Source of the DNA: a virus
Reading direction: 5' to 3' (one strand)
IMG/VR virus record: IMGVR_UViG_3300036945_000258
Span: 1 to 28,711 of that record
DNA length: 28,711 nucleotides
The translations under genes were made by a program, and so were the position numbers. Position 1 is the first letter of the stretch. Every line of letters starts with the position of its first letter. Shown here piece after piece: positions 10,838 to 28,234 of this stretch. Under the pieces are notes generated by a model. That model worked only from the letters and a program-made list of their open reading frames with translations, had not been told where the DNA came from and searched no databases.

Positions 10838-11740
10838 TCAGCTTCTTTCCGTAAATGACCGCAGCCTGATTATTGTCGCACCGTTACCTACGGTCAAGGT
10901 GCCGGTGTAAATGCCACTTGGGCCGTATTGTACGCCTGCGGTTACTTCAGACGGGTCAGGGTATAGCGAGATGCGGGCTGCGGTGCCCGCAACAGCCGCG
11001 CTGTCAACCACCAATGCGCCGTTAGTGATGTGAGTAGTGGTTTGGGCCGCGCTGCCAACAATAATGGCCCCCGGCCCTGCCAGCACACCGGCAGCGTCGT
11101 GCGCCCGGGTGCGGGCTGCGCTGCCCACTAGAGTAGTGCTTGACCCGGTAAGCGTGCCTGTAGTGGCGTGCGGGGCGTTGTGCCTAGCCGTACCGGCAAC
11201 CGTTGAGCCGGGGCCGGTCAGAACGCCGCTAGTAGCGAAGGCTCTAAAGCGTGCCGATGACCCGGCGACCGTAGTGCCAGGGCCTGCTAGTGCGCCCGTA
11301 GTGGCGTGAGTAACTACGCCGGTTACCCGCGCTGCGCTGCCGGTAACAGTAGCACCTTGGCCGGTCAGCGTGCCGCTGGTGGCAAACGCCCGGAAGCGTG
11401 CGGCAAAGCCAGAGGCTGTCGAGCCCGGCCCGGTCAGCGCGCCAGTGGTTGCGTGCTGTCGTGTTCTGGCTGCGCTGCCCGCTACGCTGGCCGTAAGGCC
11501 CGCCAAGGCCCCGGTCGTGGCGTGCGTAACCGCGCCCGCTGACCTAACCGCGCTACCGACAATGACGGCGCCGTCGCCAGCCAGTACGCCAGTGGTTGCG
11601 TGAGCGCGAAAACGCGCAGCGCCGCCGATGACATTTGAGCCTTGGCCTGTCAGTGCGCCGGTGGTAGCGTGGGTGGTTGCCCCTCCACCTACCTCAAACG
11701 CGCCCCCGTCGAATGCGCCTGAATCAAACGCTTGGGCCAC
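10838..11740 (-). CDS. Repeat protein with ten 23-26-residue glycine/alanine repeats
   Basis: The product is 300 residues from a GTG start at 11740, three bases after the stop of the upstream 45-codon gene. After a short start (FDSGAFDGGAF) residues 24-259 consist of ten tandem units, eight of 23 residues and two of 26, with consensus HATTGALTGPGSTVAGSAAR. Residues 260-300 form a cap (DPSEVTAGVQYGPSGIYTGT, then LTVGNGATIIRLRSF) of a kind seen at the ends of other phage proteins. Alternating small hydrophobic, Gly and Thr residues with a fixed period suggest a beta-solenoid or a chain of short beta-hairpins. It lies within the fibre block, so a spacer, fibre shaft or surface-binding role is plausible. 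It has no assigned function. Confidence 0.8.
   Translation of the reverse strand: MAQAFDSGAFDGGAFEVGGGATTHATTGALTGQGSNVIGGAARFRAHATTGVLAGDGAVIVGSAVRSAGAVTHATTGALAGLTASVAGSAARTRQHATTGALTGPGSTASGFAARFRAFATSGTLTGQGATVTGSAARVTGVVTHATTGALAGPGTTVAGSSARFRAFATSGVLTGPGSTVAGTARHNAPHATTGTLTGSSTTLVGSAARTRAHDAAGVLAGPGAIIVGSAAQTTTHITNGALVVDSAAVAGTAARISLYPDPSEVTAGVQYGPSGIYTGTLTVGNGATIIRLRSFTERS
10964..11671 (-). repeat. Degenerate 69-78 bp tandem repeats within the repeat protein gene
   Basis: The ten protein repeats are visible at DNA level as units of 69 bp (eight) and 78 bp (two), diverged mostly at third positions. The two longer units, second and fifth, carry the same three-codon extension type (SAGAVT and VTGVVT), which suggests duplication of a multi-unit block followed by drift. 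Confidence 0.75.
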
Positions 11741-17945: not shown

Positions 17946-18040
17946 AATTCTTGTGGCCCCTACGTAGCCGTTGGCCCTGTCGCGTCGGCCCTACCCGGGG
18001 GGTAGTGTGCGCTCACCTACATGCACTAGGCAGGCAGGCG

Positions 18041-18330
18041 TGGGTGGTTGTCGCCGTGTCCACGCACACCGCACCCAGCATGTGGGCGGTTGTCGCCACG
18101 TCCACACACATCGCATCGGCTATCTGATGTGTGGGCGGTTGTCGCCGTGTCCACACACAGTTGATGTGCTGTCTGCGGGGTGTTTGACGCCCCTCCACGC
18201 GGTAGCCAAAATGTGGGCGGTTGTAGCGCCACCCACCAGCATCGCTGGCCGTACGTGCTACTGTGTATATATACAGTTATTTTCTTTTTCTCAAGGGTCT
18301 AATAAACAACCAACGACAACCGCCCACCCA
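18041..18330. repeat. Iteron-like repeat array
   Basis: The core TGGGYGGTTGTCG occurs directly at 18041-18053, 18083-18095 and 18132-18144, with one mismatch at 18214-18226, and inverted at 18314-18326. The first three copies extend to about 28 similar bases ending in CCACRCACA. Inside each of these GGYG and CGCC can pair around a five-base loop (with one G-T pair in the first copy), and TGTG-type and CACA-type ends can extend the stem; the third copy has the longest outer arms (18128-18133 with 18152-18157). Unit spacing is 42, 49 and 82 bases. Iterated sites of this kind bind replication initiators, terminases or repressors in other systems; the binder here is unknown. Confidence 0.82.
18264..18275. 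promoter_or_regulatory. 12-bp A/T palindrome TGTATATATACA
   Basis: A perfect palindrome sits between the fourth direct and the inverted repeat copy, in the most A/T-rich part of the region and followed by a pyrimidine run (18278-18291). It could be a melting site of an origin or an operator half-site pair. Confidence 0.5.
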
Positions 18331-18379
18331 TAGGAGGGCGACCGCGCCACATCGCGCACACAATCCGCACACAAACCAC

Positions 18380-19290: not shown

Positions 19291-19318
19291 GCCCCCATTC
19301 GTGGGGGCTTTTTTTTTT
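19291..19318 (+). terminator. Strong intrinsic terminator of the micro-gene operon
   Basis: GCCCCCA pairs with TGGGGGC (19291-19297 with 19302-19308) around a TTCG loop, followed by ten Ts (19309-19318). The T-run reaches the stop codon of the convergent primase-helicase gene. Confidence 0.92.
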
Positions 19319-21617
19319 ACCCTCGCACGCGGGCGATAATCTCAGCGGCAGAGGGTGCGGGTAGGTCAACGACCCGGCGAGCGTCAGACTTAGACCCGAC
19401 GAAATCAGGCGCGGCGTAGCAGTGCCTTTTCGTTCTGGCCTCCCGGGCGTGACACAGGCCGAGGTCATGCCAGCCGGCCTCGCGGAAGGCGTGTAGCAGG
19501 GCCTGAACGTGCAGCCGCACGGCGGCGGGGGCGCTGGGTTGCAGTTCCTCGACCACCGACTGCCACGGAGCACCAACCACGCCACGCGCAAACGGACCGG
19601 CACGGTCGTTCAACTGGGTCATCAGCCACGATTCGGCCGGCGACATACCCGCGCCCAGCATGATCAGCTTAGCCTCGGTCATCAGCGGGGGCGCACCGGG
19701 GTTCCACTGGGTCACATCACGGGCGTGCAGCCAGGCGGCCACCGCCGCCAGGCCACCGGCCCCGTACCAATCCCACAATGCTTTGGCCTCAGCGGGCGGC
19801 ATGATGGAGGCCTCGCTCCAGAGGACGAGCCAGCGACGGTCGTCGGAGGGCAAGGTGATCGCGGCGCGCTCGTTCGAGAACGCCAAAACGAGGAGCTTAT
19901 TGGCGGCATCGTAGGGGTGCAGGCCCTTGCGCTGGATCGAGATCAGATCAGGAGGCGCGGCCAGCAAGGGCTTGAGTCGGTTCTCAAGGGCCCGGCGGTC
20001 GCTGGCCTCAGTCTGGCGAAGCTCGTTCAAGACCAGCACCTCGCTCTCAAAGGCGTAACCCCATTGGGAATGGATCTCTTCGTTGCGGACGGTCGCCACG
20101 TTCGTGCGACCTTCGCCACCGATGGCCCACAGGAACGGGGTCCAAAGACTATCCTTACCCGCGCCAGGCTTGCCAGCGTGCAGGACACCGTGATTAATCT
20201 TGACACCGGGGTGCTGCACCTTCCAAGCCATGATGTTAAATACATGCTCACGCTCGGCATGGTCGGGGATCATCTTCTCGGCGTGGGCCAGCCACAGGGA
20301 CACGTCGCCGCCAGTAGGGCGGGGGCGACCGTCCTGCCACTTGTTGCCGTACACGCCACCGGAGCGGGCGACGAGGACCGACTCGCCGGGGGCGTAGGCG
20401 ATACCGTCCAACACCCGTCCCCCTTTATCTTGCCGGTGCTCGTCGTAGCAGACCGACGCTTCAATCTTGGGGTTCTTGCCGTGGATGGACCGGCACGACA
20501 CATGCCGGAACAAGGCGTTAAAGTTGCTCCGCGTGAACTGGCGGCGCTCGCGCATGTCAAAAAACGCATCGTCCGACACGACGTAGGCGAAACGAGCCCA
20601 CCAATCGGCCTTCTCAGTACGGGCGGCCTCGGCACGGTCAACCTCCGCGACCACCAAAGCAACAGCGCCGGCCAGCGCAGGAGGAGGCGTCAGGCGGCCA
20701 ATCGTGGCGGCCATAGCTTGCTGGAGCAACTCGTCCCGCAGGCCAGGCGTGTGACGGGGGCCACCCTCAGAGGCGACCCACTCAAGGAACCAAGACGAGC
20801 CCAGATCGACGCAGTGCGAGTGCAGGCAGCAGTACGCCCGCCCGCTGGGCAGGTAACGGCCCTCGGGGTTGCCGTCAGTGTGCGAGGCGGCGTTGGGGCA
20901 CTGTACACCCATCCAGCCCTCGGGGTTAGGACGGGACAGCACCAGCCCGCGCTCCGACAACCACGCGGCGACATCATCAGCGCCATCGTCGGACAGGCGC
21001 ACGGGGCGGGGGCCAAGCGACTCGACCACCTCGGGGGTGACGCCGAGACTGTCACAGATCTGGGACAGAGTGTAATCACGGTCGGGGTGGAACTCGACCA
21101 GCCGAGCGGCGAAGCCGTCCCGGCCAGGCTTCAGGTTGACGCTACCCGGCAGGCGGAAGTTGCGGACGGGGTTTGTTGCGCCGGGGTCGGTGTAGCCCGC
21201 CGCCGCGATGGCCTTGATCGCGCCAGCGAACTCCAGCTTGGTCGGCTGTTCGCTGAACGCATAGCCCCACTGATAATTGTCCGGCGAGGTCTCCATGATC
21301 CAGGTCGGCGGCAAGGCGGGCGTCTTGCTCTTGGTGCCAACGTCGTCCAGCATCATCACCAGGACGTACTCGCAACACGCGGCGCTGGCGCTGGGGCGCC
21401 CCGCATCGAAACGGTCGATGATGAAGCTGGCAGTGTTGCCGAACCACGCCTCGCCGTCCTTGACGCCCCGCGTCGGCAGGAACGCCGGCCAAGTCGCCTT
21501 GACCGCGCCGTCGGCATGCAGTTGCAACTCACCATCGACGCGCTTAGGCGTCTGACGGACGATCAGTGCTGTCTCACCCTCGGGGGCCAGACCGGCCAGG
21601 TATTCGATGAAATTCAT
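19317..21617 (-). CDS. Primase-helicase (RepB/AEP-like primase plus SF3-type helicase)
   Basis: The 766-residue product joins a primase and a helicase. Residues 80-185 resemble the archaeo-eukaryotic primase fold of RepB-type proteins (VLVMMLDDVGTKSK, TWIMETSPDNYQWGYAF, then VRNFRLPGSVNLKPG). Residues 240-269 hold clustered Cys and His (CPNAASH and CCLHSHC), likely a zinc-binding linker. The helicase half (DUF5906-like) has Walker A GKPGAGKDS at 482-490, a Walker B-like VLVLNE ending at 532, and FSNE near 580. AGGAAT precedes the ATG. It would unwind and prime phage DNA, working with the PolA two genes upstream. It is last in the replication operon, and no separate initiator gene is seen here, so it may bind the origin itself. 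Confidence 0.85.
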   Translation of the reverse strand: MNFIEYLAGLAPEGETALIVRQTPKRVDGELQLHADGAVKATWPAFLPTRGVKDGEAWFGNTASFIIDRFDAGRPSASAACCEYVLVMMLDDVGTKSKTPALPPTWIMETSPDNYQWGYAFSEQPTKLEFAGAIKAIAAAGYTDPGATNPVRNFRLPGSVNLKPGRDGFAARLVEFHPDRDYTLSQICDSLGVTPEVVESLGPRPVRLSDDGADDVAAWLSERGLVLSRPNPEGWMGVQCPNAASHTDGNPEGRYLPSGRAYCCLHSHCVDLGSSWFLEWVASEGGPRHTPGLRDELLQQAMAATIGRLTPPPALAGAVALVVAEVDRAEAARTEKADWWARFAYVVSDDAFFDMRERRQFTRSNFNALFRHVSCRSIHGKNPKIEASVCYDEHRQDKGGRVLDGIAYAPGESVLVARSGGVYGNKWQDGRPRPTGGDVSLWLAHAEKMIPDHAEREHVFNIMAWKVQHPGVKINHGVLHAGKPGAGKDSLWTPFLWAIGGEGRTNVATVRNEEIHSQWGYAFESEVLVLNELRQTEASDRRALENRLKPLLAAPPDLISIQRKGLHPYDAANKLLVLAFSNERAAITLPSDDRRWLVLWSEASIMPPAEAKALWDWYGAGGLAAVAAWLHARDVTQWNPGAPPLMTEAKLIMLGAGMSPAESWLMTQLNDRAGPFARGVVGAPWQSVVEELQPSAPAAVRLHVQALLHAFREAGWHDLGLCHAREARTKRHCYAAPDFVGSKSDARRVVDLPAPSAAEIIARVRG

Positions 21618-21626
21618 GCTCTATTC

Positions 21627-22328
21627 CTACAGTGAGCAGACGCGGCAAGCTGCGCCCTTTTTGTATTCGCGCAGCTTCCGCCCACTGGCGAATTCCGCAC
21701 CTAAGGATTCCAGATCCGCAGGCCATGTGTCGCGACCGGGACTGCGGAACGTGGCGCCTATTTGTTTTTCCAGCGCAACGCCCCGCGCCCAATGAACGGG
21801 ATAGTTGTTGTATAGATCACGCCATTCGCCCAGTCGTTGGTACGGGCACAGGGCGCAATCAGTGCGCTTAGGTATGGCGACGCCGCGCTGGCTAAGGTAC
21901 GCCCACACATCGGCCTCTTTCCAGCCCCACTCACGCATCGGGAATCGTATCGCCATGTCCTCGCCGTAAATCCCTTTACGCTCTTCTTCGTCGGCGCGCA
22001 GGCCAACGTACAGCACTGACCCCGGCGGCAGTTCAGCCATGTAATCAATGGTCGGCTCGATCTTTAGCACGCGGGTACACCACCGCGCAAACACGCTGGG
22101 CAGCATGTTCATCTGCTCAATGGTGCCTTCTAGGTCTTTGTCGTAGCGCACGCGGATGATCGGCTTGCCAAGCATCTGCTCCAGTTTGGCCCAATGCGCC
22201 ACCATTTCTGGCAGTTCGTTGCCGGTTTCATTGCAGATATATTCGTATTCACGCGGCTCAATTTCGGCCAACCGCAACGCCAACGCGGTTGAATCTTTGC
22301 CGCCGGACAGGCCAACAATATGTTTCAT
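21627..22328 (-). CDS. PAPS-reductase-like PP-loop protein
   Basis: The 233-residue product belongs to the PAPS reductase / adenine-nucleotide alpha-hydrolase-like group. The PP-loop SGGKDS is at residues 8-13, followed by NETGNELP, a RWCTRVLK segment, GLRADEEER and RFPMREWGWKEADVWAYL, all characteristic. Six cysteines stand out: C32, C84, C158 and C161 (CALC), and C228 and C231 (CRVC), which could carry an iron-sulfur cluster. The ATG overlaps the polymerase stop (ATGA). Family members act on sulfate, thiolate tRNA, or make DNA phosphorothioates (DndC). Lack of dnd partners and the replication context leave the substrate open. Confidence 0.88.
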   Translation of the reverse strand: MKHIVGLSGGKDSTALALRLAEIEPREYEYICNETGNELPEMVAHWAKLEQMLGKPIIRVRYDKDLEGTIEQMNMLPSVFARWCTRVLKIEPTIDYMAELPPGSVLYVGLRADEEERKGIYGEDMAIRFPMREWGWKEADVWAYLSQRGVAIPKRTDCALCPYQRLGEWRDLYNNYPVHWARGVALEKQIGATFRSPGRDTWPADLESLGAEFASGRKLREYKKGAACRVCSL

Positions 22329-24307
22329 TTCCCGTATCTTTCCATTGTTTTAATTTCAATACCAAGCGGCAAGCCAGCCGCCCAGCTAGGCGGCGTGGTC
22401 ATCACGCGCTGCATTAGCTCAGTCGTGCCCTCGGGGTCGTCCGTCTCGCAGACCACTTCGTCGTGAACGTGCAGGACAGCCTCGGGCAGCGCCCGCAGCG
22501 CCTCACGCAGCAGGTCATGCGCCGTGGCTTGGACGACGTTCTCGCAGGCCAGCCCCGGCCACAGACGGGCGCGGGGCCATTCTTTGGCGTCAGCAGCAGG
22601 CTTCCAGCTAGCCTTGGCGTAGCTGATACCATCGGCGTCGAGTCTTGCATGGGGGTAGCAGAGGATACGCCCACTCGGGAGCGAATACCATAGGTGGGCG
22701 CTGTCAAAGAAGTAGGACACGCGGCCCGCCTTGAACTCCACGCCTTTCTTGCGCATCGCGGCGGTGTAGGCCCGCTCTAGGTCCGACCAGAAGGTGACGG
22801 CCCACGGGTTAGCCCGCCGCCAGGCGTGGACCATCCGCTTGGCCTCGGGCTCCGGCATCGCCAAGCCGTAGATGCGGCCCATAGCGGCGAAGGCGCCAAC
22901 GCCACCCGCGAAGCCGCAGGCGAGTTCTTGCACCTTCCCGATCTGGCGTTGCCCCGCCGCAACAGCGTCCTCGGCCTCGTAGCCGGCCAGGATGGCATCG
23001 TAGGGGCGCCCGAACGTGGCGCTGGCGTTGACGATGTAGGCGTCCAGCCCAGCAGCGAACGCGGCCAGCTTGGTCTTGCCAGTAGGCGTACCGGCCAGCC
23101 ACGGGTTTACCCGGCCCTCGATGGCGGACCAGTCGGCCACCACGAACTGCTTACCCGGCGCTGGGATCAGTGCGGGGCGCAGCATCCCCTTCAGAACGTC
23201 GGTGACGCGCTTGCCGAACTCAGGAACGATCTGATGCCCCCGGACCATTGCATGCCGCGCTGCTTGTGGATTCTTGGCGGTCTTGCGGGCGAAATTATGA
23301 ACTTGCAGCCCGTATGAACTGGCCCGACCCGTTGCAGCGCCACCAGAGAAAACGAACGCCCCGCGCACACGGTGATCTTCGACATCCGCAAGGTCGGCCA
23401 TACGGACGAACTTGGCGACCGAACTTGCCCAAAGGTCGTCAGCGCACTGGATGACTGTCGCCGCAGCATAGGGTACTTCATCAGGGTTTTCCTCAGACAG
23501 GATCAGTAGTGCGGCACGAACGGACTTGTCGATGGACTGCTTGCCCTCGTCGGTAGTCATCAGACGACGCGCCTCGGGGCCTACGCGGTCCCAGACCCAC
23601 TCACGCATTTTGGGCGAACGTACTGAGGTGATCTCGCCCTCGGTCACCTCGACCACCTCGGCCTCGATAGCGGCCAGTTCCTGCGCGGCGTAAGCCTGCG
23701 CGGCCTTGGCGAGGTCTACGTCCACCAGCACGCCCCTTGCGTTTATCCTGGCATTAACGTGGTAGTCGGCCAGTTCTTGCTCAGACAACGGGCGCATGGC
23801 CTGCGACACAGCCCGCATGGCGCGAACGTCTTGCATCGCGTATTCGCCGAGTTCGGCCAGCACTTTAAGATCTTTACTGAACGGGGGCATACAGCACAGC
23901 CGAATCAACTGCTTACCGCGATGATCCTTGCGCATGTTTGCGCCAGCGAACCGGCCAACGTCTTCTAAGCCGCCGGGTCCGCAGTTAGCCCGAGCCTGCG
24001 CAGCGGTGCAATACCAGCGCTCCAGAGCAGGCTCGGCTAGCCCGTAGTCTGGGCACACCACATACCAAGTAAGCAGCCGATCAAACTCTTCATTGTGAGC
24101 GCGTATCTGGCCGCCGTTTTTGAAATAGTCTGCTAGCCGCTGAGGCACAGGCTCATGCGCCCACCATAGTTGAACGTCTTCATCGTCAAACGCATACGCC
24201 GCGCACAGCATCTTGGTGCTGGGATGCTGCGCGTATTGATACGCGCCATGTTTGACCAGATCACACTCGCTCTGAGACTCGTAGTCCAGCCAAAGGGTGT
24301 CAGACAT
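22325..24307 (-). CDS. Family A DNA polymerase with 3'-5' exonuclease domain
   Basis: The 660-residue product replicates phage DNA. The exonuclease domain shows LWLDYES (D8 and E10), AHNEEFDRL (N72 and D76) and EYAMQDVRAM (Y156 and D160). The polymerase domain shows motif A VVADWSAIEGR (D392), motif B RQIGKVQELACGFAGG (R454, K458) and motif C HVHDEVV (H615, D616, E617). The residue at K+4, equivalent to E. coli Phe762, is leucine (L462), and K+8, equivalent to Tyr766, is phenylalanine (F466). There is no 5'-3' nuclease domain. It overlaps the HNH gene by eight bases upstream and the PP-loop gene by four downstream. Confidence 0.95.
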   Translation of the reverse strand: MSDTLWLDYESQSECDLVKHGAYQYAQHPSTKMLCAAYAFDDEDVQLWWAHEPVPQRLADYFKNGGQIRAHNEEFDRLLTWYVVCPDYGLAEPALERWYCTAAQARANCGPGGLEDVGRFAGANMRKDHRGKQLIRLCCMPPFSKDLKVLAELGEYAMQDVRAMRAVSQAMRPLSEQELADYHVNARINARGVLVDVDLAKAAQAYAAQELAAIEAEVVEVTEGEITSVRSPKMREWVWDRVGPEARRLMTTDEGKQSIDKSVRAALLILSEENPDEVPYAAATVIQCADDLWASSVAKFVRMADLADVEDHRVRGAFVFSGGAATGRASSYGLQVHNFARKTAKNPQAARHAMVRGHQIVPEFGKRVTDVLKGMLRPALIPAPGKQFVVADWSAIEGRVNPWLAGTPTGKTKLAAFAAGLDAYIVNASATFGRPYDAILAGYEAEDAVAAGQRQIGKVQELACGFAGGVGAFAAMGRIYGLAMPEPEAKRMVHAWRRANPWAVTFWSDLERAYTAAMRKKGVEFKAGRVSYFFDSAHLWYSLPSGRILCYPHARLDADGISYAKASWKPAADAKEWPRARLWPGLACENVVQATAHDLLREALRALPEAVLHVHDEVVCETDDPEGTTELMQRVMTTPPSWAAGLPLGIEIKTMERYGK

Positions 24308-24686
24308 GGGCCAAATCCTTACGTTTTGTGTGCCAATGTCTTTGCTCGTAAGTGTGAATGTGGTGACAGTTTGAACAAAGCACTTCGCATTTAGCGATTT
24401 CTGCCATCAGTTTCTGCCATGCTTTTTTTGAGTCTTGACTCACACAAAAAAGTTTTTCGCCGTGAATGTGGTTGAACTCAAGCGCCGCAGGATGAGCGTT
24501 AAATCCGCAATTAGAACAACCACGATCGGTTTTTATTTTGTTGAGTAAATCTTTACGCTTTTTTTGATACGCGCGAGTGAGTATTTTTTTGCTCGGTGAC
24601 GAACTTCTACACTTTGACCCGCAATAAATTTGCCAAGGCAAAGTAAACGTAAAACCCGCGCCGCAAGTTTTGCACAGCTTCTGCAT
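24300..24686 (-). CDS. HNH endonuclease with zinc-ribbon start
   Basis: The 128-residue product starts with a zinc-ribbon-like motif (C5-x2-C8 and C22-x3-C26). A basic linker follows, then an HNH core: C57-x2-C60, LEFNHIHGEK (N72, H73), and LCSNCHHIHT (C104-x2-C107 with N106, H108 and H109). The gene is A/T-rich against its neighbours (23 of 60 bases GC at 24541-24600), with long A and T runs, and overlaps the polymerase start, so it looks like an invasive gene placed between the replication genes. GGGGTG before the ATG is a weak Shine-Dalgarno. A stand-alone homing role is likely; a role in packaging or resolving DNA is possible. Confidence 0.85.
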   Translation of the reverse strand: MQKLCKTCGAGFTFTLPWQIYCGSKCRSSSPSKKILTRAYQKKRKDLLNKIKTDRGCSNCGFNAHPAALEFNHIHGEKLFCVSQDSKKAWQKLMAEIAKCEVLCSNCHHIHTYEQRHWHTKRKDLAHV

Positions 24687-24855: not shown

Positions 24856-25497
24856 TTAGACCGCAACGCGGCGACGGCGTGCGGGCGCGGCTTCCACCTC
24901 CACCTCGGGCTCGTCACCACCCATACCGACCCACGACTGAACGTCGAAGACCGGCGTGTAGACGCGCCCGTAGCTCTTGTGGGCGTAATGGTCCTTTGCC
25001 AGCTTGACCACCGGCACGGGCGCCGTCTGGTCCTTATCGACTTGGGTGGCAATCGCCACCGCCAGCGCCTGCACGGCCCGCTTGCCGCCCACCGAGGTAG
25101 TGGAGTAGCGCGCTTCCATGCCGGCGTCAGCGCCGCTGGTGCACTTGAGCGAGAACCCGACTTGCGGCTCCCACCCACGCTTCGCGCCGGGAGGCGCCGC
25201 GTCAACCTCGGGCAGAGGCTGGGTCACTGGACCCATCTTCTCACCGAGAACGTCGCCCTCGCCCCATGCGATGAAGCCATGCACGAAGGAGAACGGGTTG
25301 ACGGCCCAGAGGCTGCCGTCTTCGACTTCTTCTTGCTCGGCCCCGTAGACCCAGTGGCCCGTCTTGTCCATTTTGATGATGACGGTCGTGGAACCGACAT
25401 CAGGCGCGATGGCGCGAAGGGCCGTGGTCAGGGACGCAACTGCCGGCAGGCCGGCTTGAGAGAACACAGTCATAGAGGACACGATTGAACCTTTCAT
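24856..25497 (-). CDS. Unrecognised replication-operon protein
   Basis: The product is 213 residues. It is beta-rich in the first half (STTVIIKMDKTGHWVYGAEQ, then VNPFSFVHGFIAWGEGDVLG) and ends with a short acidic then arginine-rich tail (DEPEVEVEAAPARRRRVAV). A conserved-looking pattern near residues 170-195 is LAKDHYAHKSYGRVYTPVFD. In related phage clusters the gene next to DUF2800 is often DUF2815, an ssDNA-binding-type protein. This sequence does not show the DUF2815 start and I cannot assign it. A single-strand-binding or nuclease-partner role is inferred from position and the coupled ATGA start. The function is unknown. Confidence 0.72.
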   Translation of the reverse strand: MKGSIVSSMTVFSQAGLPAVASLTTALRAIAPDVGSTTVIIKMDKTGHWVYGAEQEEVEDGSLWAVNPFSFVHGFIAWGEGDVLGEKMGPVTQPLPEVDAAPPGAKRGWEPQVGFSLKCTSGADAGMEARYSTTSVGGKRAVQALAVAIATQVDKDQTAPVPVVKLAKDHYAHKSYGRVYTPVFDVQSWVGMGGDEPEVEVEAAPARRRRVAV

Positions 25498-26612
25498 TGG
25501 AGTTTAGAGAGGGCCGCAGTCAACTGCTGCCCGATGAGAACCACCGCTGACCGGGGATCACTCTCCGGGGCGATGGTGTTGCCACTGCTAACCGCCACCA
25601 CCTGATCGGTGGGGAAGTCAACCTTGGCCTTCTTTGCCACCTTCTCGGCTTGAGCAGGTGACAGAAGTTCCTTCTTGAAGATGTCGTCAGCGCCAAGGCC
25701 AACGGCCATCAGCGCCTGCTCGGCCTTGGCCTCATCGACCCACTGGCGCGTCGCACGCTTCGATACTAATTTATACCCCGGCACAGGGATACTTTTCTCA
25801 AGCCGCTGCATTGCCAGCGCCCGAGCGTCGCCGATAAAGCCTTCCAGCTTCTCGGCCAGCGCCAGCGCACGGCCCAAGTCCTCGTCGCTGATGCCGGTCA
25901 GGGCCGTTTGGATAGCGCGGTCGATGGCGCCGGTCATCTTAGGGCAGACGGGCTTCGCCGTACACCAGCGGCACCAATCGCCGATTTCGAGAGGCGCGTC
26001 GGGCTTGGCTGACAGCTTAACCGCATTGACGAGGTCACGCTCAAACTGGTCTACCCGCGCCCAAGTGGTCACCCAGCGGCGGATGACGGGGAACTGCACG
26101 ATGATGATCTCGACCTCGCGGGTGTCCTGAGCGGCCCACTGAACGCTGCTGGTCTTCTTAGCCGCCGCAGCGTAGAACAGACCCTGCTCGTTTTCTTCAG
26201 CGCCGACTACCACGCCGTCACCGAACTTCCAGTCGAGGATGACGCAACGGTCACCGATTTTGCCGACCAGATCCACGTTGCCGAACACGCCTTCCAGCGC
26301 GGCCACGCCCTCAAACTCGACCTGAACCTCCTGCGCGAAGTTCATCTCGCCCTTGGGGTCGATCTGGTCCAGGGCGTTAACGCAGAACGTCAGCTTCTCG
26401 ACCTGCGCCTCTGTCAGGCTGACGTCAGCGCGAATAGCGCCCATCACGTCCTCGGTCCCGAGCAGGCGGTCCATGCAGTTGTGCAGCATGGTGCCCTCGG
26501 CGGCGTACTTGCTCTCGATCTGCGGCGGCATACGCCGCACCAGCGCCACGCTGCCAGGGCAGTTGATGACCCGCTTGGCGGTTGACCCGCCGACTACTTT
26601 ACTGTGCTGCAT
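25494..26612 (-). CDS. RecB/Cas4-like PD-(D/E)XK nuclease (DUF2800)
   Basis: The 372-residue product matches DUF2800, a RecB-family nuclease group. Visible motifs are EGTMLH (G40, H44), GNVDLVG (D114), ILDWKFGDG (D127 and K129) and QGLFY (Q143 and Y147). Four cysteines, C18 and the C-terminal C214-x2-C217-x5-C223, match the spacing of the iron-sulfur cluster found in Cas4 and AddB. The ATG follows AAAGGAGAG and a strong leftward promoter, so this gene leads the replication operon. It probably acts on DNA ends in replication or recombination. It is coupled to the next gene by ATGA. Confidence 0.88.
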   Translation of the reverse strand: MQHSKVVGGSTAKRVINCPGSVALVRRMPPQIESKYAAEGTMLHNCMDRLLGTEDVMGAIRADVSLTEAQVEKLTFCVNALDQIDPKGEMNFAQEVQVEFEGVAALEGVFGNVDLVGKIGDRCVILDWKFGDGVVVGAEENEQGLFYAAAAKKTSSVQWAAQDTREVEIIIVQFPVIRRWVTTWARVDQFERDLVNAVKLSAKPDAPLEIGDWCRWCTAKPVCPKMTGAIDRAIQTALTGISDEDLGRALALAEKLEGFIGDARALAMQRLEKSIPVPGYKLVSKRATRQWVDEAKAEQALMAVGLGADDIFKKELLSPAQAEKVAKKAKVDFPTDQVVAVSSGNTIAPESDPRSAVVLIGQQLTAALSKLQ

Positions 26613-26697: not shown

Positions 26698-27000
26698 ATG
26701 GAGAAACAGAAATTTTTGGAGCGCGACATCGAGGCGTACTTGGTGCGCCGTGTTAAGGAGCGCGGCGGCAAGGCGTACAAGTTCGTGAGCCCCACGAACC
26801 GGGGCGTGGCTGACCGGCTGGTCGTGCTGCCAAGCGGGCAAGTCTGGTTCGTTGAGGTCAAGACCGAAGGCGGGCGCGTGTCGCCGCTACAGCGCATCTT
26901 CGCGGAAGAGGTCAAGGTGCTAGGGTGCAACTACGCACTGGTGTGGTCTAAGGAGGACATCGATGCTTTCGTTGCGCCCAGTTCAAGAAACGGCTGCTGA
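26698..27000 (+). CDS. VRR-NUC domain nuclease
   Basis: The 100-residue product is a stand-alone VRR-NUC, a PD-(D/E)XK nuclease fold. The core motifs are present: IEAYLVRRVKERGGKAYKFV, GVADRLVVLPSG with D39, WFVEVKTEGGRVSPLQ with E53-x-K55 and Q65. Stand-alone phage VRR-NUC proteins are thought to cut DNA junctions or flaps. It is first in the rightward operon and overlaps the helicase gene by 38 bases. This pairing with a SNF2 helicase is frequent in phages. No Shine-Dalgarno is seen; the promoter placement favours leaderless translation. Confidence 0.92.
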   Translation: MEKQKFLERDIEAYLVRRVKERGGKAYKFVSPTNRGVADRLVVLPSGQVWFVEVKTEGGRVSPLQRIFAEEVKVLGCNYALVWSKEDIDAFVAPSSRNGC

Positions 27001-28234
27001 CTTCCTGTACGAGCGTGACCGTGCGCTGATGCTGGCGCCGGTCGGCTCAGGCAAGACGGCGATCACGCTCACGGCGTTGCGCCCGTTGCTGCTGCACGGC
27101 ATCGCCCGCCGCGCCTTGGTACTGGCACCGCTGCGGGTGGCTGCGCACGTTTGGCCCGAGGAGGTGCAGAAGTGGGCGCCTCAGTTGCGGCTGGCCGCCG
27201 CCGTCGGCACGCCCGCGCAGCGCCAGGCGGCGCTCGGCAGCGACGCCCATGTCATCGTCAGCAACTACGACAACATCCAGTGGCTGGTCACGCAGCCTTG
27301 CGACTTTGATGTTGTCATCTTCGACGAGCTAACGCGGCTGAAAGACCCGAGCGGCAAGCGGTTCAAGGCGCTAGAGAAGTGGATCAAGGACGTACCCATC
27401 CGGTGGGGCCTGACGGGTAGCTTCACCAGCAACGGCCTTGAGGATGTGTTTGGCCAGTGCAAGATCGTTGACCAGTCGCTGTTGGGTCGCGCTAAGGGCG
27501 CGTTCCTGCAACAGCACTTCTACTGCATGAGCCGCGACTTCAACGACTGGGAGCCGCGCCCCGGCGCTCTAGAGGCGATCATGCAGCGCATCAAGCCGGC
27601 CACGTTCCTGCTGGAGGGCGCGTCCACCAACCGGGCGCTCAACATCGTACCGATGGCCTGCGAGATGGACCTGACCGACTACGAAACGATGAAGAAGGAC
27701 TTCGTACTGGAGCTAAACGACGCGACAGCCATCGCGGCGTCAGCGGGCGTTGTAACGCAGAAGCTACAGCAGATGGCGTCCGGGTTCCTGTACACGCCAG
27801 AGCCGCGCTGGCTGTCGCACCACAAGTTCGACCTGCTGGACGACATCCTGTCCGAGAACCAAGGCGCCAACACCATCGTCTTCTACAACTACATCGAGGA
27901 GCGCGAGGAGTTGCTGCGGCGATACCCGCACGCCCGAGGCCCCGAGGCGCTGGACGATTGGAACGCCGGCCGCGTGCGGCTGCTGGCGCTGCACCCCAAG
28001 AGCGCCGGCCACGGTTTGAACCTTCAGTCGGGCGGCCATCACATCATCTTCCTGTCGCTGCCGTGGTCGTTGGAACTGTACGAGCAGGCCATCGGGCGGC
28101 TGCACCGCAGCGGCCAGCAGCACGATGTCTGGGTCTATGTCCTACAGACAAAGGGAACCATTGACGAGCGGATTCTTACCGCGCTCAAGGAAAAGAAGTC
28201 GTTATCGCAAATCGCTGTGGAGGCATTGAAATGA
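26963..28234 (+). CDS. SNF2-like superfamily 2 helicase
   Basis: The 423-residue product has all main SF2 motifs: Walker A APVGSGKT (25-32), motif Ia LVLAPLRV, the DEAH-box equivalent DELT (121-124), motif III LTGS (150-153), and motif VI QAIGRLHRSGQ in the second RecA-like domain near residue 375. The layout and RLHRSGQ form fit compact phage SNF2 ATPases that remodel or unwind DNA in replication and recombination. AAGGAGG lies six bases before the ATG, inside the VRR-NUC gene. Its stop overlaps the next start as ATGA. Confidence 0.93.
   Translation: MLSLRPVQETAADFLYERDRALMLAPVGSGKTAITLTALRPLLLHGIARRALVLAPLRVAAHVWPEEVQKWAPQLRLAAAVGTPAQRQAALGSDAHVIVSNYDNIQWLVTQPCDFDVVIFDELTRLKDPSGKRFKALEKWIKDVPIRWGLTGSFTSNGLEDVFGQCKIVDQSLLGRAKGAFLQQHFYCMSRDFNDWEPRPGALEAIMQRIKPATFLLEGASTNRALNIVPMACEMDLTDYETMKKDFVLELNDATAIAASAGVVTQKLQQMASGFLYTPEPRWLSHHKFDLLDDILSENQGANTIVFYNYIEEREELLRRYPHARGPEALDDWNAGRVRLLALHPKSAGHGLNLQSGGHHIIFLSLPWSLELYEQAIGRLHRSGQQHDVWVYVLQTKGTIDERILTALKEKKSLSQIAVEALK

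Follow-up and report, generated by a model that had tools for sequence, protein, structure and literature searches.

SspD is the sulfurtransferase of SspABCD, a bacterial system for single-strand DNA phosphorothioation, and brings sulfur to the DNA backbone. It is the sulfur acceptor in the SspA-SspD complex, in which it is bound by SspA (PMC7188994). Modification by the Ssp system is reported to need nicking by SspB as an essential step (PMC8092258). DndA can be replaced by IscS (PMC8569181), and a PAPS-reductase subunit is fed by a desulfurase and then passes the sulfur to DNA (PMC12839542). Such proteins occur in phosphorothioation systems, and their phage homologues have been said, in a general remark, to deserve study (PMC11437467). 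Many virome papers count phage "PAPS reductase" or "cysH" genes as auxiliary sulfur-assimilation genes.

We found that one such phage gene encodes a protein whose placement beside SspD, and not among the sulfate-assimilation enzymes, is well supported by sequence comparison. The gene lies in a 28,711-base IMG/VR virus record (the whole stretch of DNA analysed, called the window below). The gene and its motifs are:

21627..22328, minus strand: orphan SspD-like PP-loop sulfurtransferase, 233 aa, as assigned from the ORF reading, Pfam, PHROGs, PADLOC SspD, the tree and an AlphaFold2 model
22290..22307, minus strand: PP-loop SGGKDS (residues 8-13), the ATP/pyrophosphatase motif, read directly
22233..22235, minus strand: C32, kept within the phage clade and absent as a conserved site from SspD
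22077..22079, minus strand: C84 of RWCTxxLKI, predicted to be the first ligand of an Fe-S cluster and found without exception in phage and bacterial relatives
21846..21857, minus strand: CALC (C158 and C161), predicted to supply the other Fe-S ligands and likewise invariant in those relatives
21636..21647, minus strand: C-terminal CRVC (C228 and C231), predicted sulfur-carrying tail, positioned as the terminal CxxC-x-L of SspD

Several observations confirmed that the ORF is real and far beyond chance. In phages the gene is annotated as PAPS reductase, phrog_424. Its product matched Pfam PF01507 (E = 4e-11) and PHROGs phrog_424 (E = 6e-41; category, host takeover), and the two matches concur in indicating a protein of the PAPS-reductase/PP-loop kind. 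IMG/VR contained 62 relatives with 71-93% identity. The ratio dN/dS was approximately 0.02-0.12, indicating that the protein is under selection.

A first-pass annotation of this DNA had described an SGGKDS PP-loop, CALC and CRVC pairs, two more cysteines, and an ATGA overlap with the DNA polymerase gene polA. All of the motifs were read directly on the minus strand at 21627-22328, the two further cysteines being C32 and C84, and the TGA stop of polA and the ATG of the SspD-like gene share the ATGA at 22325..22328. The protein has six cysteines in total (C32, C84, C158, C161, C228 and C231). C84, C158 and C161 were invariant in 40/40 aligned sequences, and C32, C228 and C231 were present in 38-39 of the 40. 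Over 47 phage and bacterial relatives, only C84, C158 and C161 were invariant cysteines; in the SGGKDS loop of these sequences, S8, G9, G10, D12 and S13 were invariant and K11 nearly so. The three invariant cysteines match the predicted Fe-S cluster site of the family, and a cluster is predicted there.

Profile searches placed the protein closest to SspD. In a scan with the PADLOC defence models, it scored 152.8 bits with SspD (E = 3.8e-45), 38 with BrxP and 20.6 with DndC. The SspD model is specific: the controls scored low (E. coli CysH, 14.3 bits; a DndC, 28.1 bits) or, for E. coli TtcA, were absent from the matches to this model. In an NCBIfam scan, no curated CysH model matched the protein, and the DndC model TIGR03183 failed (17.5 bits versus a cut-off of 290.4). 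Profile-profile comparison of the phage family (hhalign) gave scores of 346 with SspD (E = 9e-53), 112 with DndC, 93 with PptA, a protein of Vibrio phage vB_VhaP_VH-5 (E = 1.8e-13), and 42 with CysH.

The first-pass annotation had also called for a phylogeny with DndC and the PAPS reductases. A maximum-likelihood tree built from 61 proteins united the phage proteins with SspD in one clade (support 95/88) without DndC, CysH, CysD, TtcA or PptA, and the phage proteins were sister to SspD. Grouping of the phage clade with CysH was rejected by the AU test (p-AU = 0.0014). Grouping with DndC was not rejected (p = 0.179; long branch). Under the SspD and DndC groupings alike, the nearest relatives by sequence are DNA-phosphorothioation enzymes. 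In addition, the catalytic ECGLH of CysH is missing from the phage protein, whose tail reads AACRVCSL; in the reference CysH sequences, the C-terminal residues are ECGLH or ECGIH. We rejected a role as a CysH of sulfate assimilation on the basis of the missing curated match, the AU test and the hhalign score. The annotation's suggestion of nucleotide or DNA modification rather than sulfate assimilation was right in direction, given the kinship to SspD and the rejection of CysH; DNA modification itself is a probable role suggested by that kinship.

Relatives encoded in bacterial genomes fell into two sets. Seventy matched SspD better than the window protein, and in the same stretch of DNA these had neighbours that were SspC-like (64/70), SspB-like (52/70) and SspA-like (19/70). 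The other ten (L147-L156) matched the phage protein better than SspD and, with a protein of Dunaliella virus SI2, were the nearest outside group to the phage clade in the tree. Of the 69 bacterial SspD-like ORFs whose C-terminus was complete, 63 ended in CxxC followed by 0-4 residues (for example CLICHL), so we regard the C-terminal cysteine pair as an SspD feature. The phage protein ends in CRVCSL. No such tail was found in the four DndC sequences compared. Separately, SspD-like proteins from Gastranaerophilales (L170, L174, L193, L194, L204 and L221) lacked the terminal CxxC, and some had a shorter SspC-like neighbour. These are possibly a separate Ssp variant.

The AlphaFold2 model of the protein had a mean pLDDT of 90, with residues 223-233, including the CRVC tail, unreliable. 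The modelled fold was the PP-loop fold found in PAPS/APS reductases, LarE, TtuA and NcsA, and entries of the last three with [4Fe-4S] clusters were among the structure matches. A common fold alone shows no function. No SspD or DndC entry was among the matches in this comparison, which has no bearing on family membership.

The gene lies in a DNA replication module. Its neighbours in the window are:

22325..24307, minus strand: family A DNA polymerase, polA (PF00476, E = 3.5e-9; phrog_17, E = 8e-90)
19317..21617, minus strand: primase/helicase (RepB-primase and DUF5906; Pfam, PHROGs), beginning 9 bp downstream of the SspD-like gene
24300..24686, minus strand: HNH endonuclease, upstream of polA (phrog_2255, E = 3.5e-24)
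25494..26612, minus strand: DUF2800 / PD-(D/E)XK exonuclease, in the same replication module (Pfam, PHROGs)
26698..27000, plus strand: VRR-NUC endonuclease (Pfam, PHROGs)
26963..28234, plus strand: SNF2-type helicase (Pfam, PHROGs)

We compared 69 distinct loci containing a gene of the window type. The gene was directly after polA in 34 and directly before it in 25; polA was more than 400 bp away in 6, and in 4 no polA was seen. The 4-bp overlap was exact in all 34 loci with the gene after polA. A quick tree needed ten changes in the position of the gene relative to polA. In a sample of 80 loci centred on polA, only 6 carried a gene of this type, indicating that the gene is accessory, and we rejected the idea that it is a core replication gene of these phages. 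The gene was more conserved than polA, but the loci had been chosen by similarity to the SspD-like gene, so this is not evidence of stronger selection.

HNH genes and DNA methyltransferases, including C5 enzymes, occupied the slots flanking polA in sister phages, as did PAPS-like genes of four subfamilies (window type, PptA type, L080 type and SGGRTSAY type). The HNH slot upstream of polA likewise takes methyltransferases and PAPS-like genes. In other lineages, the neighbours were a DNA methyltransferase (L147, L149), a helicase (L033, L035, L298) or a distant family A polymerase (L155). Based on these slot-mates and neighbours, the context of the gene is DNA replication and modification. The earlier argument that tight coupling to polA points to DNA modification was borne out only in part: the gene is accessory (6/80), sits on either side of polA or elsewhere, and shares its slots with HNH and methyltransferase genes. 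An insertion hotspot maintained by HNH genes may account for the adjacency to polA, which is no proof of physical coupling; any physical link to the polymerase is putative.

Other arrangements were seen in and around these loci. In L064 (3167-5746), a single contig, a small deletion has joined polA to the SspD-like gene in one reading frame and taken away the start of the PP-loop. We rejected a polA-PAPS fusion as a natural form; L064 was the only case, and damage to this copy or misassembly is the likelier explanation. Some phages carry two PAPS-like genes, as a second one (SGGRTSAY) comes between the window-type and primase genes (L054:10702-11538, L019:2930-3769, L052 and L056). The family A DNA polymerase of L155 (5030-7969; 979 aa) matches, at residues 490-802, the phrog_93 endonuclease family, which is that of the VRR-NUC protein in the window. 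A protein with a DnaA C-terminal DNA-binding domain (L102:1386-2090) lies amid the replication genes of PptA-type phages. The window itself contains a 49-nt repeat in four imperfect copies at 18039-18260 (core GTGGGCGGTTGTCGCC). The repeats lie upstream of the packaging genes, and an inverted copy is present at 18314-18331; the site might serve replication or regulation. It also encodes a 300-aa protein built of repeats of ATTGALTGxGSTVxGSAAR (10838-11740, minus strand), perhaps part of a virion fibre.

We looked for Ssp partners in 17 virus records (the window and 16 relatives), which are possibly incomplete. No match to SspB (DUF4007) or SspC was found in these records, and bacterial controls were found in the same runs. 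No SspA was found in the 17 records. Cysteine desulfurase (PF00266) was likewise absent from them, and all 14 control genomes were positive. Neither DndD nor DndE appeared among the ten proteins scanned with Pfam. We therefore rejected the idea that the phage conceals an Ssp operon, given the lack of DUF4007, SspC and cysteine desulfurase matches in these records, and because SspB and SspC are absent from the records, the locus is not an Ssp system by definition.

Use of a host cysteine desulfurase is plausible, since PDB entry 21fy holds PptA, a distant phage relative, together with E. coli IscS. The 242 PptA residues of the printed alignment were 100% identical to the protein of Vibrio phage vB_VhaP_VH-5, and 21fy also turned up under the E. 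coli IscS sequence. We infer binding of IscS by PptA from this shared entry. The structure shows that another group is at work on a related protein. Our literature search found no paper on PptA, its name or function, nor on SspD-like phage proteins.

Based on these results, we think it rather probable that the gene product is an orphan sulfurtransferase of the SspD type, which modifies phage DNA with sulfur, probably on the backbone, so that these phages may use host-derived sulfur as a mark on their own DNA. The host desulfurase IscS would pass sulfur to the protein, most likely with the C-terminal cysteine pair and the Fe-S cluster as its route. With ATP, the PP-loop would activate an acceptor on DNA, and sulfur would take the place of oxygen. 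The most likely acceptor is the DNA backbone, giving a phosphorothioate as SspD does in SspABCD, because the nearest characterised relatives modify the backbone. Phage replication enzymes, a source of nicks and single strands, could stand in for the absent SspB nickase and SspC ATPase, and this could account for the persistence of the gene in the replication module. The phage would probably benefit by having its DNA shielded from host nucleases. The product and partner enzymes named here are those that we infer. The absence of SspB from the records speaks against this mechanism, as its nicking is reported to be essential in SspABCD (PMC8092258). More tentatively, and with the balance somewhat against it, phosphorothioation might need only this one phage gene: sulfur would come from host IscS, the phage DNA would be marked during replication, the polymerase, primase-helicase and nucleases would replace SspB and SspC, and coupling to the polymerase would be translational or physical.

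Our results might also indicate that the protein acts on a phosphorothioation defence of the host, completing or poisoning SspABC so that phage DNA gains the self mark or host marking fails. The protein is nearest to SspD and comes without partners, the gene is accessory and mobile between phages, as an anti-defence gene would be, and it is common for Ssp systems to have no known restriction partner (PMC8092258). We nevertheless consider this rather unlikely. Four PAPS-like subfamilies occupy one slot and two of them are far from SspD, a pattern better explained by a common chemistry than by mimicry of a single host protein, and retention of the PP-loop and all of the cysteines, with the low dN/dS (~0.02-0.12), argues for an active enzyme rather than a simple decoy. 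Thiolation of RNA (a tRNA or a phage transcript), as by TtcA, TtuA or NcsA and with host IscS as sulfur donor, is improbable in our estimate: the PP-loop and predicted three-cysteine Fe-S layout are the same, and TtuA, NcsA and LarE are among the structure matches, but the sequence is near SspD and far from TtcA, and in the phage lineages examined the gene is found with genes for the replication or methylation of DNA.

The PHROGs category of host takeover and the PDB entry shared by a distant phage relative and IscS would also suit a protein that binds IscS and diverts its sulfur or the Fe-S supply, with no modification of nucleic acid. A role in binding only has no need of a conserved, intact SGGKDS loop, and we give this reading a slim chance. 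Least of all do we expect an auxiliary PAPS or APS reductase of sulfate assimilation. The Pfam and PHROGs names and the overall PAPS reductase fold speak for such an enzyme; against it are the lack of ECGLH and of a curated CysH match, the rejected CysH grouping (p = 0.0014) and the hhalign score of 42.

PAPS-like phage genes are already well known; new here are the SspD placement of the phage clade, the common tail, and the pattern of slots beside polA. One subfamily of the phage "PAPS reductase / cysH" genes, and possibly several, belongs with the DNA-phosphorothioation enzymes instead. If our proposal is true, one gene plus host IscS would provide a compact backbone modification and a new resistance to host nucleases, and would test which Ssp components are indispensable.

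Of the known systems, SspD is the most similar. It shares with the phage protein the best profile, the best profile-profile score and a sister clade, as well as SGGKDS, RWCTxxLKI, the CxxC pair and the terminal CxxC. SspD is longer (~275 versus 233 aa), and the phage protein has an extra conserved C32 and a TFRS-x-x-RD-x-W stretch past the core. Unlike SspABCD, the phage gene sits in a DNA replication module, without SspA, SspB or SspC in the phage. A cysteine desulfurase of its own is optional for SspABCD, as IscS can serve, and none (PF00266) was in the 17 phage records.

PptA of VH-5 is also a lone phage PAPS-like protein. It has the same order of CT-x-x-L/M-K, CxxC and C-terminal cysteine pair (a five-cysteine layout), and genes of its type fill the same slot between polA and primase in sister phages. 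However, it is only ~20% identical to the phage protein, lies in a separate clade of the tree, and has S-x-GAxSAV in place of the SGGKDS loop, and in VH-5 its gene adjoins an RNA polymerase gene. Rhizobium phage RHph_N65 has a lone gene of the PptA type beside its replication genes. DndC shares the PP-loop, the RWCT motif, its nature as an Fe-S protein and feeding by a desulfurase, but is longer, with another cysteine layout and no terminal CxxC, and the phage protein fell short of the TIGR03183 cut-off (17.5 bits). In BrxP of type 4 BREX, a PAPS-reductase domain serves DNA phosphorothioation (PMC12839542); its model scored 38 bits with the phage protein but spans 779 positions, and BrxP has additional domains and partners. 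CysH is alike in overall fold and differs in its ECGLH, its curated model and its grouping in the tree.
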